This document shows, in pieces, positions 1,295-7,045 of a DNA stretch of 46,758 bases. The notes beneath the pieces are model-generated. The model searched no databases, was not told the origin of the DNA, and saw nothing but the letters and a program-made list of their open reading frames with translations. The translations under genes and the position numbers were made by a program. Position 1 is the stretch's first letter. Each line of letters starts with the position of its first letter. This DNA comes from Azoarcus taiwanensis (GTDB taxonomy: Bacteria; Pseudomonadota; Gammaproteobacteria; Burkholderiales; Rhodocyclaceae): NCBI RefSeq assembly GCF_012910885.1, contig NZ_WTVM01000012.1, positions 1 to 46,758 on the forward strand. Direction: 5' to 3'.

Positions 1295-1723
1295 TCAAGG
1301 CAGCAAAAGCAGGATCCGGATGCCTTCCGCAACCTCGTTCGCGGGCAGGTAGCCAATGGCGTTGGGGTCGGCCTTCACGACGGCGCTGACACTGGCGGTG
1401 CCCGTAAGTTGTTGAGGCGGGCGGGCTCGACCGGAAAAGACCATGCGCGACCAATGTGCTCTGGTTTGAAGTGCGTTCTTGCGGATGAGTGCCTCATAGA
1501 AGCTATCGCGAAGCTGCCCGGGGGGTTGGTCCAGGAGGCGCACCGGTGTGCCGTCGCGCAGTGAGCTCGTACGCCCGGAATAGAGTTCCTCAGCCTCTTC
1601 GCGACTGATCATGGCTACCGCGCCATCCATGCCGGATACCAATGCAATCTGTTCGTCCGCGCGGGCATGGACGTTCAGTATCGACACCAGACCGATCAGG
1701 ATCGATAGCAGGAGACACCGCAT
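1295..1723 (-). CDS. short periplasmic phosphate-ABC-type substrate-binding-like protein
   Basis: 142 residues with a signal peptide (MRCLLLSILIGLVSILNVHARA). The body resembles the short PstS-like proteins annotated as phosphate ABC transporter substrate-binding proteins: EELYSGRTSSLRDGTPVRLLDQ, then HWSRMVFSGRARPP and a final ADPNAIGYLPANEV. These are about half the length of a true PstS and usually have no cognate permease; none is present here. It starts 8 bases after the porin gene and is the last of three minus-strand genes (sensor, porin, this protein). The start at 1723 is chosen because the longer frame would overlap the porin gene and lack a signal peptide. The ligand is unknown; a role as periplasmic input to the neighbouring sensor is inference. 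Confidence 0.7.
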   Translation of the reverse strand: MRCLLLSILIGLVSILNVHARADEQIALVSGMDGAVAMISREEAEELYSGRTSSLRDGTPVRLLDQPPGQLRDSFYEALIRKNALQTRAHWSRMVFSGRARPPQQLTGTASVSAVVKADPNAIGYLPANEVAEGIRILLLLP

Positions 1724-1731
1724 GGCTCGGC

Positions 1732-2916
1732 TCAGAATACGATATCCATCGAAAGGCCTAGGGTGTCCAGCCTGCGGCCACTCGGTGTTATCCCGCTGCG
1801 ATCGTTGGCTGGGAAGAAAGCGCCCCATGCTTTTCGCCGAACCTTGGTTCGGGTCCACTGCGCTTTCACGGCGATGTCGGGGCCGACATCCCATCTGGCG
1901 CCGACGCTCAGGCTGCGCTGGGCATTGCTCCGTGATGCGCGGTAGGCCTCGAGTAGCGGGCTGGATGGATAACGGGGCGCTACGGATCGATCCCGTTTGT
2001 TCTCCGCGTAGGTGACGAAGGGCGTGATGTTTCCTGACCGATACCCTGCGGTCACATGCCAGCCGGTGGAGGATGTCACGAATCGGTCGACCTGCCGTCG
2101 CGCAATCTCTCCGCTGAGGTGGAGGCGGTCACCCTCCCATTGTGCGCCGATGGAGGTGAAGCGCGCCGTCGCGTCGCGGCCGCTCAGTTGCGGAGCGACC
2201 GAAGGTGCGGCCAGTTCAACCATGCTATGGAGCGGATCTCCGTAACGAATCGCCAGGCGCCCCTGGGCATGGCCGATCCGGAATTGCAGGCCGCTGCCTT
2301 CCAGGCCGAGCGACAATCCGGCCATCCTGTTGAGTCGGCCGCTGCCTTGCGGAAAGCGTATCGTGCTCTCTGCACCAAGAAAGGGCTGGACTTCGAGGTG
2401 AAGTCCGCCCGGGCCAACGCGCCTCCGGTACAACATGTCGAGTCCGACAACCTCGTTGAAGGGGTTCAGCCCGTAGACCTCAACCGGTGGCCGCATCCAG
2501 ATGTGCGCATAGTTGACGTCCATGCTGTCGGAGAGCATGAAGAATGGTGCCCGCAAGCGTCCGCCGCGCAGCGTGAGTCCCGGTGTGAGATCGTGGCTGA
2601 TGAAGGCCCAGTTGACGCGTGGTCGGTACTCACGTCCGTGGCGATCGGCAATGCTCACCTGCACTGTCGCCGACGTGTTGGTGGTGAAACGCCGAATCAC
2701 CTGGACATTGAGAGACGAATCAGCGCCAACGTCGATGCGAGATGGTCGGGTGCGTGTTCTTGCCGGATGATTGAAATAGACCTTGTCATCGTCTGTCTTC
2801 ACCGCGCCCAGCGTGCCGAAGCCCGAAAAATGCCAGTCGCTGGCCGAGACGCCCGTGATCGGGGTGGCGCCAAGCATCAGGCCAAGCGCCGTGATCTTCA
2901 GCAGTGAGTGTTTCAA
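1732..2916 (-). CDS. outer-membrane porin-like beta-barrel protein
   Basis: 394 residues with a signal peptide (MKHSLLKITALGLMLGATPITGVSA), then SDWHFSGFGTLGAV, alternating amphipathic strands and a terminal phenylalanine (LGLSMDIVF), the usual C-terminal signal for outer-membrane barrel insertion. It looks like the porin partner seen beside short PstS-like proteins and EAL-domain sensors. The start is a TTG at 2916, preceded six bases upstream by GAAGGAGAT. TTG and the TGA of the upstream sensor share bases (TTGA), so translation is probably coupled. Frames extending upstream to 3054 run inside the sensor gene and are rejected. Solute specificity cannot be read from the sequence. Confidence 0.75.
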   Translation of the reverse strand: MKHSLLKITALGLMLGATPITGVSASDWHFSGFGTLGAVKTDDDKVYFNHPARTRTRPSRIDVGADSSLNVQVIRRFTTNTSATVQVSIADRHGREYRPRVNWAFISHDLTPGLTLRGGRLRAPFFMLSDSMDVNYAHIWMRPPVEVYGLNPFNEVVGLDMLYRRRVGPGGLHLEVQPFLGAESTIRFPQGSGRLNRMAGLSLGLEGSGLQFRIGHAQGRLAIRYGDPLHSMVELAAPSVAPQLSGRDATARFTSIGAQWEGDRLHLSGEIARRQVDRFVTSSTGWHVTAGYRSGNITPFVTYAENKRDRSVAPRYPSSPLLEAYRASRSNAQRSLSVGARWDVGPDIAVKAQWTRTKVRRKAWGAFFPANDRSGITPSGRRLDTLGLSMDIVF

Positions 2917-4364
2917 TCTCGATCTCCTTCGCCGCGCGCCAACCACATTTCGTGAGCTTGTCCGGTCTGCATGGGCTTGCCGAACAGGTAGCCCTGTCCA
3001 TAGTCGCAGCCAAGGTCGCGCAGGATGACCAACTGCCGCTCGTCCTCGATCCATTCGGCGATGACTTTCATGCCCAGGTCATGCGCGAGCTCGATGCTGT
3101 GTTGCACGATCGTGCGCAATCGCTCGTCGTCCGCGATGCGTCGGATGAATGCACCGTCGAACTTGATCAGGTCGCAGGGGATCGAGTGCAGGTAGCTCAG
3201 TGCGGAGTATCCGGTGCCGAAGTCGTCGATCATGATCTGGAAGCCCGCGTTGCGGAGCTCGTCGACGGATTGCTGGGCCGACCCCGTCAGGTCCGCAAGC
3301 ACGCTCTCGGTTATCTCGAAACGGAGGCAATCGGGTGGCAAGCCGGTGTCCTGGGCACGTTCGATCAATGCGTGCACCAATGCCGGATTGGCCAGTTGCA
3401 CGGCCGAGAGGTTGATGCTGATCGGCACAAGTGGTCGCTCAGGTTGTGCCTCCCGCCATTTCTTGAGCACCTTGCATGCCTGCTGCACTGTGCGCAGACT
3501 GACTTGCTGAATCAGTCCCCGTGTTTCTGCGATCGGGATGAAATCCTCGGGCAGAAGAATCCCGAGCTCCGGGTGAACCCACCGGGCCAATGCCTCGAAA
3601 CTGCTGAGCCGCTGGTCGGCGAGCGATACGATGGGCTGCAGGTGGATGTCGATGCCTCGCGTGAGCATCGCGTTTCTCAGATCGGCTTCGAGTTTCAGCG
3701 TGCGCAGTGCTTTCGAATGCATTGACGCATGAAACACGGCGACTGCGGAATCGCCGCTGCGCTTTGCCTCATGCAGGGCGTTGTCGGAGTCTCTCAGCAG
3801 GCTTTCCGGTTTTGAGTCGTGATCCTCAACCAGAGCTACACCGATATGCACCTTGGGGAAAAACGCGTGTGCGTCATTGCCGATGCGAGCCGGGGCGGAA
3901 ATGGCCTCGCGCAGTAGTTCCGCAATTCGCAAGCCCTCTTCCTCGGATCCGATATCGTTGGCCAGCACCGCAAACTGGTCTCCACCAATGCGCGCGACGA
4001 TGTCGCCCCGCCGAACCGTGCGTGAGATTCGGTCGCCAACTTCACGCAGCAGTTCGTCACCCGCGGCGTGTCCGAAGCTGTCGTTGACGAGGTGGAATCT
4101 TTCGAGGTTGATCGTAAGCACCGCGAAGACGAATCTGCGATTGGTCGCCCGACGCCCGAGCGCACCGCCAAGGTGCTCCATGAAGAGCGCTCGGTTCGGG
4201 AGTGAGGTGAGCTTGTCGTGGAAGGCATCGTGAACGAGTTGTTCTTCGGCCAGCTTCTGCAGGTGGATGTCGCTTATGGAGCCTGCCATTCGATAGGCAC
4301 GGCCGTTTTCGCCTCTCAGGGCCACGCCACGCACAAGCGCCCAGCGGGTCTGACCGTCCGGCAA
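2913..4364 (-). CDS. GGDEF-EAL C-terminal half of a c-di-GMP sensor, separated from its N-terminal half by an in-frame TAG
   Basis: This frame continues directly from the 4422-5435 frame after the amber codon at 4422-4424. It carries the end of a PAS domain (DGQTRW, RGVALR, RMAGSISDI), a GGDEF domain (about residues 45-205) and an EAL domain (about 220-470). The signature reads GGDQF, lacking the catalytic glutamate, so diguanylate cyclase activity is doubtful. The phosphodiesterase motifs are present (FEALARW, EITES, DDFGTGYSAL). The only nearby start is a TTG at 4364 without a visible ribosome site, and starting there would cut the PAS domain in half. It is therefore most likely a pseudogene fragment, a sequencing error or a readthrough product. 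Its stop overlaps the porin start. Confidence 0.75.
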   Translation of the reverse strand: MPDGQTRWALVRGVALRGENGRAYRMAGSISDIHLQKLAEEQLVHDAFHDKLTSLPNRALFMEHLGGALGRRATNRRFVFAVLTINLERFHLVNDSFGHAAGDELLREVGDRISRTVRRGDIVARIGGDQFAVLANDIGSEEEGLRIAELLREAISAPARIGNDAHAFFPKVHIGVALVEDHDSKPESLLRDSDNALHEAKRSGDSAVAVFHASMHSKALRTLKLEADLRNAMLTRGIDIHLQPIVSLADQRLSSFEALARWVHPELGILLPEDFIPIAETRGLIQQVSLRTVQQACKVLKKWREAQPERPLVPISINLSAVQLANPALVHALIERAQDTGLPPDCLRFEITESVLADLTGSAQQSVDELRNAGFQIMIDDFGTGYSALSYLHSIPCDLIKFDGAFIRRIADDERLRTIVQHSIELAHDLGMKVIAEWIEDERQLVILRDLGCDYGQGYLFGKPMQTGQAHEMWLARGEGDRD

Positions 4365-4421
4365 GGTGACTTGCAGCTCGGTCTTGAACTGATTGGAATA
4401 GCCCTTGAGGTGAGCGATGAG

Positions 4422-4424
4422 CTA
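4422..4424 (-). other. in-frame amber codon inside a PAS-GGDEF-EAL gene
   Basis: The minus strand reads ...GAC TCG CGG CGC GAG TAG CTC ATC GCT CAC... with both flanks in one frame and both belonging to one PAS domain (LDSRRE, then LIAHLKGYSNQF). One base change from GAG, CAG or AAG would make this TAG. Confidence 0.9.
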
Positions 4425-5435
4425 CTCGCGCCGCGAGTCGAGTTCGGCCGGGTTCATCCGCTTCGGGATCTCGTCCTGGGAGATCTTGGAGGCGCCCTGC
4501 GGAAGGCCGAAGATGTCGCTGAAACGTTGCGAAACGTAAAGGGTCTTTGCGGGGATGTCCCAGTCCCACAATCCGTCGTTTGCGCCTTTCATCGCAAGCG
4601 CGTAGCGCTCTTCACTGCCTCGCAGCTTGCTCGCGGTCTGGTCGAGTTCGTCTATCCGTGCCTGCAGGCTGTCGGCCATGAGGTTGAAGCGCTTGGCAAG
4701 GTCCGACAATTCGTCGTTGCCCTTCTCGGGAATCCGGTGCGCCAGTCGGCCCTCGGCCAGTGCAAGGCTGCCATCGAGGAGGCGGCGAAGGTTGCGGGTG
4801 AGGAGGTAGCCGATGCTCGACAACAGTAGAAGGGTGAGAATGATCTCTGCGAGCGCAATCATTGCGCCCTGGCGGAAGATCGCCTGCTGCGCGATCGCCA
4901 GGACCGAAGCCGAAACGCCGAACTGCAGAAAGCCGACCGTGTTGCCTTCAAGGAGCAGGGGGGTGCGGATGTGGATCAGGTGTTGAGACCCGTTGCCGCG
5001 CTGCAGGGTCGGGCTGCGTTGTGCTTCGGGCAGCTCCTGCATCTGCGGCATGCCGGCAGTCACGAGAGCGACACCGTCGGCGTCGACGACCCGAACATAG
5101 ACAAGGCCCTCGTTGGCGTCGAGCAACAGTTCCCCGAGCACATCCTGCATCGCCTCGAAGCGACGTTGCTCACCGTACGCCGTGGCGAGCGCGTGAAGCA
5201 TGGAGGCATTCTGCTCGACCATGACCTCGAGGCTTGCCTCGGTTGCCTCCTGCATCAACCGGACACTATTGAATATCAACAGGGACAATAACGCGACCTG
5301 CACCAGCGTGCTGGCAAGCAGAAGCCGAAATCGTATCGATGATCGAGTGGACGACAAGCGCAAGGCGGGCCCCAGGCAGGCGTACCCTCGCCCTGACACG
5401 AGCGGGTTCGTGAAAACGCCCACAGAAATGAACAC
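4422..5435 (-). CDS. membrane sensor N-terminal half (periplasmic sensor, HAMP, partial PAS), ended by an in-frame TAG
   Basis: The order is a membrane segment (about residues 35-60), a periplasmic region of about 130 residues, a second membrane segment (about 190-212), a HAMP domain (about 213-265) and the first half of a PAS domain (GANDGLWDWD, FSDIFGLP). The frame stops at TAG 4422-4424 in mid-PAS, and the same frame goes on with the rest of the PAS, then GGDEF and EAL. The intact protein would be an inner-membrane sensor controlling c-di-GMP. The start shown is GTG 5435; a TTG near 5365 (LRLSSTRSS) is also possible. It is first in the sensor-porin-binding-protein operon. The N-terminal half alone would have no output domain. 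Confidence 0.75.
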   Translation of the reverse strand: MFISVGVFTNPLVSGRGYACLGPALRLSSTRSSIRFRLLLASTLVQVALLSLLIFNSVRLMQEATEASLEVMVEQNASMLHALATAYGEQRRFEAMQDVLGELLLDANEGLVYVRVVDADGVALVTAGMPQMQELPEAQRSPTLQRGNGSQHLIHIRTPLLLEGNTVGFLQFGVSASVLAIAQQAIFRQGAMIALAEIILTLLLLSSIGYLLTRNLRRLLDGSLALAEGRLAHRIPEKGNDELSDLAKRFNLMADSLQARIDELDQTASKLRGSEERYALAMKGANDGLWDWDIPAKTLYVSQRFSDIFGLPQGASKISQDEIPKRMNPAELDSRRE

Positions 5436-5519: not shown

Positions 5520-6899
5520 CTAGTGATCAAGCAGCCTGCGCAGTGAAGCGGTGGCATCGATTCGACCGTCTTCAGCATGTGCCTCGAGGTTTTCCTCTAT
5601 GCGGTCCGGGTCGTAAAGATAGTTCACCATCATGCCCCAGGACTGCGCGATGCCCTTGTCCGAACGGTCAGCCATCCAGTTCAGTCTTTCGACTCGTGCG
5701 CCGTTGCCCAGATGAAAGCGGGCGACCGGGTCGAGCGGGCGAACGCCCTTCTTCTCGCCCAGCAGGTAACGGGCGGCGACCCGGGTCAATGGCGGGCGCA
5801 GCGCACGGGAGAGGGCCGTGTCGTGCTCTGGCAGGTGTTCGCCTGCGAGTACCGACTCAAGCAATGGCGCCTGGGGTCCGTCGATGCCCGCTTCGGCCAG
5901 GCGCTTCCAGTCGCTTGTGCTGAATGCCGCGAGCACCTTGTCGCGGTTGCCACGGGCCCAGCTTGTCAGGCCCGGTATCGGCGACAGCGTGGCGAAGGTC
6001 TTGAGTTTTGGAAAGTCGCGCTTGAGATCGTCCACCACTCGCTTCAGCAGGAAGTTGCCGAACGAGACCCCGCGCAGCCCCGGTTGCGTATTGCTGATCG
6101 AGTAGAAGATCGCAGTGGTCGCGCGGGACGAATCGAATACCGGTGCATGCTCGTCGAGCAGACTCTGAACGTTGTCGGCGAGATCCTCGAGCAGTGCGAC
6201 CTCGACGAAGATCAAAGGCTCCATCGGCATGCGTGGATGGAAGAAGGCGTAACAGCGGCGGTCGGCGTCGAGTCGGTTCTTGAGGTCGCGCCATGACGAG
6301 ATTTCGTGGACCGCTTCATATTCGACGATTTTCTCCAGCAGCGCGGCCGGTGAATGCCAGGTGAGCCGGGTAAGCTCCAGGAAGCCGACGTCGAACCATG
6401 TCGTGAGCGCGGCTTCAAGTTCATGATCGAGCACCGCAAGCTCCGGCGCTTTGCGCAGATGGCGCAACAGGTCGGCGCGCATGTCGACAAGGAACTTCAC
6501 ACCCTGGGCGATGGCATTGAATTGCGTGAGAATCCGCAGGCGCGCCGATGCGGTCGCCTCGCGCAGACGGCCCTCGGCTTCCCATTGAGCGTCGGTGCCG
6601 AGCGCGGCCTGATAATCGGCGTGAGCTTCGGCGATACGTGCAGGGTCGGGGCCGAACTCGAGCGCAATCATGCGCAGAAAGGCAAGGCGACCTGCGTCAT
6701 CCAGCTCAAGGTAAGTCTGGGCCAGGCGTGCGGCGCGTTGCCGCGTCGACACCTCGCCACCGCGATTTTCGGCGCATTCCTGCAATTGCTGCCGGACGCG
6801 CTCGAGCATTCGCTCGGGTGACTCGCCGACCAGACTGGTGGCGCTGGCGACTATTTCCCGGACCTTGGAGAGGCCGCGCGCGACGAGACTGCTTGCCAT
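5520..6899 (-). CDS. malonyl-CoA decarboxylase
   Basis: 459 residues. The start at ATG 6899 follows AGGAG at a good distance; the frame upstream to 7007 lacks family similarity. The protein has the helical N-terminal domain and the acetyltransferase-like catalytic domain of malonyl-CoA decarboxylase: HPRMPMEPLIFVEVAL, FYSISNTQPGLRGVSFGNF, FATLSPIPG, DPVARFHLGNGARVERLNW and a final MMVNYLYD. The reaction is malonyl-CoA to acetyl-CoA plus CO2. The serine and histidine of the SISN and FHLGNG segments are the likely catalytic pair by family analogy. No malonate transporter or malonyl-CoA synthetase gene adjoins it. It diverges from the histidine kinase gene at 7046; the 146 bases between them hold no promoter I can call. 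Confidence 0.93.
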   Translation of the reverse strand: MASSLVARGLSKVREIVASATSLVGESPERMLERVRQQLQECAENRGGEVSTRQRAARLAQTYLELDDAGRLAFLRMIALEFGPDPARIAEAHADYQAALGTDAQWEAEGRLREATASARLRILTQFNAIAQGVKFLVDMRADLLRHLRKAPELAVLDHELEAALTTWFDVGFLELTRLTWHSPAALLEKIVEYEAVHEISSWRDLKNRLDADRRCYAFFHPRMPMEPLIFVEVALLEDLADNVQSLLDEHAPVFDSSRATTAIFYSISNTQPGLRGVSFGNFLLKRVVDDLKRDFPKLKTFATLSPIPGLTSWARGNRDKVLAAFSTSDWKRLAEAGIDGPQAPLLESVLAGEHLPEHDTALSRALRPPLTRVAARYLLGEKKGVRPLDPVARFHLGNGARVERLNWMADRSDKGIAQSWGMMVNYLYDPDRIEENLEAHAEDGRIDATASLRRLLDH

Positions 6900-7045
6900 G
6901 ATGACTCCTGTTCGGTTGGCCGGTCCGATCGGTGCGTCGTCTCGCTTCCGATTGACCAGGCGTTGTACTGTCGACCCTTGAGAGCGATAAGCGCGCAGTC
7001 GGTTCATCGTTCATTCTTGCTCATACTACTTGTGCGTCATTCGGC

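Follow-up and report, generated by a model that had tools for sequence, protein, structure and literature searches.

How to read a TAG codon that stands in frame within a conserved signalling gene is the question raised by a 46,758-nucleotide stretch of Azoarcus taiwanensis DNA (the window, that is, the whole stretch analysed here), where it interrupts a membrane-bound GGDEF-EAL protein ahead of its output domains. The initial annotation left three options, a recent nonsense mutation, a sequencing error or a suppressed stop. Because homologues are one-piece proteins, the site is variable and no further stop follows, we favour the first of these and take the TAG as probably marking a recent nonsense allele, in which a conserved c-di-GMP turnover protein bound to the membrane has lost its function (probability about 0.68), while a suppressed stop is disfavoured.

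Architecture of the interrupted frame

The TAG lies on the minus strand at 4424-4422 (CTA on the plus strand, 4422-4424) and is in frame with the sequence on both sides. The read-through frame, 5435-2913 on the minus strand, is otherwise open over 840 codons and is terminated by TGA at 2915-2913. The locus comprises the following features.

5520..7007, minus strand: malonyl-CoA decarboxylase, the upstream neighbour, ending in TAG
4425..5435, minus strand: N-terminal half, with membrane sensor, HAMP and first half of PAS
4422..4424, minus strand: the interrupting TAG, in frame at codon 338 of the read-through, within the PAS domain
4287..4289, minus strand: earliest ATG in frame past the TAG, still ahead of GGDEF, ribosome-binding site not above background
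2913..4421, minus strand: C-terminal half, with the rest of PAS, degenerate GGDEF (GGDQF) and EAL, then TGA
1732..2916, minus strand: porin-like protein, whose TTG start and the sensor TGA share bases (TTGA), strong Shine-Dalgarno match
1295..1894, minus strand: third cluster gene, no Pfam match

The N-terminal half is given here as the longest frame, from GTG 5435, and its true start is possibly TTG 5363 or 5357. The read-through protein matches the Pfam families HAMP (residues 211-259), PAS_3 (299-386), GGDEF (404-562, E = 3.3e-39) and EAL (584-821, E = 2.6e-71), so that it carries both GGDEF and EAL domains, and since codon 338 falls within the PAS_3 match the TAG lies inside PAS. At a cut-off of 0.001 the N-terminal half alone matches HAMP only, and the C-terminal half, taken from TTG 4364, matches GGDEF and EAL only. 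Frame and domain matches thus agree with the initial description of one conserved membrane GGDEF-EAL sensor split within a single frame, whose N-terminal half is left without an output domain, and one amendment concerns the GGDEF motif, which is degenerate.

This motif reads GGDQF (window 3972-3986) in place of the catalytic GG(D/E)EF and does so in 45/45 orthologues from a named genome collection as well, and because of this cyclase activity of the sensor protein is unlikely. Residues E614, N675, E707, D737, D738, K758, E794 and Q814 of the EAL domain, which we take to be its active-site residues with a catalytic role, are invariant in a six-sequence alignment. Since GGDQF is found throughout while these EAL residues are kept, the orthologues are probably phosphodiesterases whose GGDEF domain does not act as a cyclase. 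In the relatives, the protein would probably sense something outside the inner membrane and the signal would pass through HAMP and PAS to a GGDQF domain, probably non-catalytic, and an EAL phosphodiesterase domain. The genome holds no second copy of the gene, its next match having 36% identity; another GGDEF-EAL gene lies on the same contig (window 22735-24900), with an open frame and 34% identity.

The gene in related genomes

Homologues were sought in 395 genomes of the family with the sensor domain at E <= 1e-50, and 92 of them bear it. The frame is open over at least 818 codons in 89 of these 92; the three shorter ones are Azoarcus taiwanensis itself (340 codons), a genome with 479 codons whose coordinates run off the contig and which is thus apparently cut at the contig end (G403), and a congener with 710 codons (G001). 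Such a stop therefore occurs in 1 of the 92 sensor-bearing genomes (395 searched), and for this reason we regard the TAG as more than a chance occurrence. The named genome collection possibly omits the window's own genome; all 45 loci found in it encode a one-piece protein with no internal stop, 44 ending in TGA and one being open at a contig end; the 45 loci and the 92 genomes share species and are not independent sets. The column that corresponds to the TAG is variable in these 45 loci, mostly arginine or lysine (R 24, K 15, T 2, Q 2, A 1, gap 1). The full frame expected in homologues of a nonsense pseudogene is accordingly present in both sets (89/92 and 45/45). Homologues that are normally two separate proteins, which the initial annotation had named as the finding that would overturn its view, were looked for and rejected, with none among the genomes and loci examined. 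Because the homologues are one-piece and free of internal stops, the locus is best read as a single interrupted gene rather than as a pair.

Two genomes of the genus were examined, and a single one of the species. The congener resembles Azoarcus taiwanensis in sensor, HAMP, GGDQF and EAL, at about 60% protein identity (locus L010), and in its neighbours, with malonyl-CoA decarboxylase upstream and porin and binding protein downstream, but it has no stop and lacks the PAS region (residues about 266-398 of the protein described here). This region is missing in frame, so that neither of the two examined genomes of the genus has an uninterrupted PAS. Orthologues in Thauera, Aromatoleum, Azoarcus and relatives (L080-L124) have the same architecture in one continuous protein, and for the most part share the gene order and the overlap at the porin start, but they have no TAG, its column being mostly R or K; L083, the Azoarcus sp. 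MAG CSMAG_1158, is not counted in this full-length group.

If the base itself is wrong, or belongs to a minority strain, the real gene would be intact. Such a base-call or consensus error, or minority-strain allele, would suit an assembly that is a draft, in 330 contigs and with contamination estimated at 2.24%, and a frame that is undamaged in its remainder. Against an error stands the rest of the genome, in which 66 stretches match the sensor protein and three have a stop inside the matched stretch. Two of these, a TAG on contig C119 and a TGA on contig C315, were rejected as mid-gene stops and are ordinary gene ends, and none of the 65 other matched GGDEF/EAL or PAS stretches carries a mid-gene stop, so the assembly is not visibly error-rich. 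Substitution errors in assemblies are rare. We consider this explanation quite unlikely and treat the base as presumably real in what follows.

Mid-gene stops in GGDEF-EAL genes do occur in the family, since a different PAS-GGDEF-EAL gene, in another genus, has an in-frame TAG in the middle of EAL (G033:C54, L161). A TGA in a further genome (G021) was also considered as a mid-gene stop and rejected as an ordinary gene end.

Decoding of TAG and possible products of the two halves

A stop that is read by some ribosomes, through a programmed signal or a suppressor, would still yield the full-length sensor. The unchanged frame on both sides of the TAG would suit such readthrough, as would the several residues tolerated at the site in homologues. 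The search for an amber-suppressor tRNA gene suggested by the initial annotation gave 46 hits to the Rfam tRNA model in the genome, all 46 typed by ARAGORN, with no CUA anticodon (CTA in DNA) among them, a count that covers the assembled sequence and not its gaps. In this tRNA search we also saw a set for Asp, Glu and Ala that occurs twice in tandem (G000:C280:2847-3513, L073). Release factor 1 is intact, prfA scoring 536.2 bits against a cut-off of 423.25 with an open frame of 361 and no stop inside. TAG serves as a normal terminator: the adjacent malonyl-CoA decarboxylase ends with TAG at 5520-5522, within 1-2 residues of the ends in L080, L098 and L117 (the comparison covers these three, the motif not being found in L163 and L087), the GGDEF gene on contig C119 likewise ends naturally in TAG, and 4 of 31 long open reading frames of the window end in it, a mechanically chosen set rather than curated genes that includes the N-terminal half itself. 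The RNA fold of a 115-base stretch beginning at the TAG is unremarkable (z -1.52; 16/200 shuffles as stable), and a readthrough-promoting structure after the TAG is unsupported. UAG reassignment was rejected, in that a CUA tRNA, an altered release factor 1 and disuse of TAG as a terminator were each looked for and none was found, and given these results and the fold a changed code or a suppressor is unlikely. As a stop at that site was also seen in no examined relative, programmed or suppressed readthrough appears most improbable.

Shigella flexneri is known to carry nonsense mutations in front of GGDEF domains, so that the nonsense interruption of a c-di-GMP gene is an already known kind of case. 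In that species overexpression of dgcE, dgcQ and dgcN raised c-di-GMP, whereas dgcM and pdeR had no such effect; two products, fitting the stop and a nearby methionine, were obtained from each of dgcM and dgcQ; and for dgcN a band of the full-length size was seen, with the discussion of the study saying likewise for dgcQ (PMC11327459). Full-length-sized bands from nonsense-bearing cyclase genes, obtained under overexpression, speak for readthrough, and the nonsense mutations before the GGDEF domain, for which internal initiation or reinitiation has been proposed, offer a precedent for a gene whose two parts are both made (PMC11327459). Of the literature searched for bacterial readthrough of pseudogenes, one part brought up nothing that looked on point. 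The diguanylate cyclase genes dgcE, dgcQ, dgcN and dgcM are like the present one, with nonsense before GGDEF, the catalytic part open and possible internal starts. Products and activity were measured in Shigella flexneri, whereas the Azoarcus taiwanensis case is known from sequence alone, and unlike the Shigella genes it has a degenerate GGDEF domain (GGDQF), its expected output being EAL.

Internal initiation or reinitiation would turn the locus into a split gene, making a membrane stub and a soluble GGDQF-EAL protein. The C-terminal half retains full GGDEF and EAL matches, with the columns taken to be the EAL active site, and no further stop, and four in-frame starts lie past the TAG and ahead of GGDEF, namely TTG 4364, GTG 4334, GTG 4325 and ATG 4289, the nearest being 57 bases beyond the TAG. 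Their pairing with the 16S tail (-1.7 to -2.4 kcal/mol) is no better than random sequence gives (mean -2.2, 5th percentile -6.4 kcal/mol), which argues against a split gene, but only weakly. Among six control starts of open reading frames in the window, chosen mechanically after a seventh coordinate that was not a start codon had been dropped, four score +0.9 to -2.5 and the other two -4.4 and -5.9, and because four of six are thus equally weak, a weak pairing score is compatible with initiation. We consider the split gene unlikely.

A maintained leaky stop or gene fission, giving mainly the stub, accompanied by full-length sensor in small amount or by a soluble GGDQF-EAL phosphodiesterase made separately, seems improbable. 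Were it true, phosphodiesterase output would be uncoupled from the outside signal and the C-terminal half would be under selection; and if the C-terminal half is made at all, the c-di-GMP genes of Shigella that can remain active despite an interruption would be joined by an EAL case.

With a recent nonsense allele, the reading we prefer, translation in Azoarcus taiwanensis would be expected to stop at codon 338 and to leave a membrane stub with no output domain, with internal starts giving at most weak translation of the C-terminal half. The signalling output would presumably be lost. A single nonsense allele carries little weight beyond annotation, where both halves should be entered together as a single interrupted gene.

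Age of the stop and possible decay of the C-terminal half

The 502 codons downstream of the TAG contain no second stop, and this places a 95% upper bound of 0.063-0.067 substitutions per site on neutral divergence since the TAG, a bound that assumes an unconstrained C-terminal half, where about 3% of random substitutions create a stop. Third-position GC is 0.73 in the C-terminal half and 0.782 in the N-terminal half, nine other genes of the window having 0.69-0.82. Against the congener, the ratio of second- to third-position divergence (p2/p3) comes to 0.32 in the sensor, 0.46 in GGDEF and 0.46 in EAL, while five distant pairs without Azoarcus taiwanensis give 0.26-0.40, 0.38-0.66 and 0.41-0.49, respectively (the much closer pair L082-L109, with ratios of 0.02-0.07, is left out of this range). 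GGDEF and EAL thus lie within the range of the distant pairs in the congener comparison, and in one of the four comparisons with Azoarcus taiwanensis, that with L117, the EAL ratio of 0.51 slightly exceeds it; the test is weak, as third positions are near saturation. Taken together, the C-terminal half fits best with a recent event or with its continued expression, and not with a long decay.

Two points tell against a recent nonsense allele. A base-call error, or a product that is still made, would account for the absence of further stops just as well. In addition, of 103 conserved columns in the EAL domain 18 carry private changes, against at most 5 in any of 45 relatives (29 against at most 18 for the whole protein), and on a fixed tree its tip branch of 0.754 is the longest among the tips listed, the next being 0.465, which could mean a longer relaxation. 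This tree holds 43 of the 46 sequences (L091, L094 and L109, in which the porin was not found by motif, are left out), and the tips listed are those with a sensor branch above 0.05, plus Azoarcus taiwanensis. The ratio of EAL to sensor tip length is however 1.33 in Azoarcus taiwanensis vs 1.91 in the intact congener, and because the intact gene has the higher ratio, the fast change of EAL does not appear to be tied to the stop or to date the TAG. The excess of private changes was therefore dropped as a sign of decay for dating, and a recent nonsense allele remains the reading that we prefer.

The overlapping porin start

Downstream, the porin-like gene was said to begin with a TTG fused to the sensor stop, and TTG 2916 does overlap the TGA. 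The protein has no Pfam match and owes its name to the initial annotation and to a signal-peptide-like start. Its Shine-Dalgarno pairing reaches -8.8 kcal/mol, beyond the 5th percentile of random sequence given above. The suggestion that lost translation of the C-terminal half could also lower porin expression is weakened by this strong ribosome-binding site of its own, and gains from the conservation of the sensor-porin overlap. A polar effect on the porin is thus possible, and since the porin has its own strong Shine-Dalgarno sequence, its dependence on sensor translation is not established. A literature search on the sensor-porin pair, as far as it extended, brought up nothing that looked on point.

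The neighbourhood itself is widely kept. In the named loci a porin is found in 43/45, a binding protein in 44/45 and malonyl-CoA decarboxylase in 41/45, counts that exclude L163 (the same place as L083) and include some loci too short for all neighbours; the porin of L091 was found by tblastn though missed by motif. The c-di-GMP sensor, the porin and the binding protein thus appear as a conserved cluster. The product of 1295..1894 looks to us like a small PstS-like periplasmic binding protein; the frame as listed overlaps the 3' end of the porin gene, and its real start is probably further in. A conserved overlap of a c-di-GMP sensor with a porin start is perhaps more useful than the nonsense allele. 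Of the 44 orthologous loci in which the sensor end is present, 38 have a porin start that shares bases with the sensor stop, 36 of them by script and two (L082 and L097) from translations, and the six loci that differ are L081, L094, L099, L102, L112 and L123.
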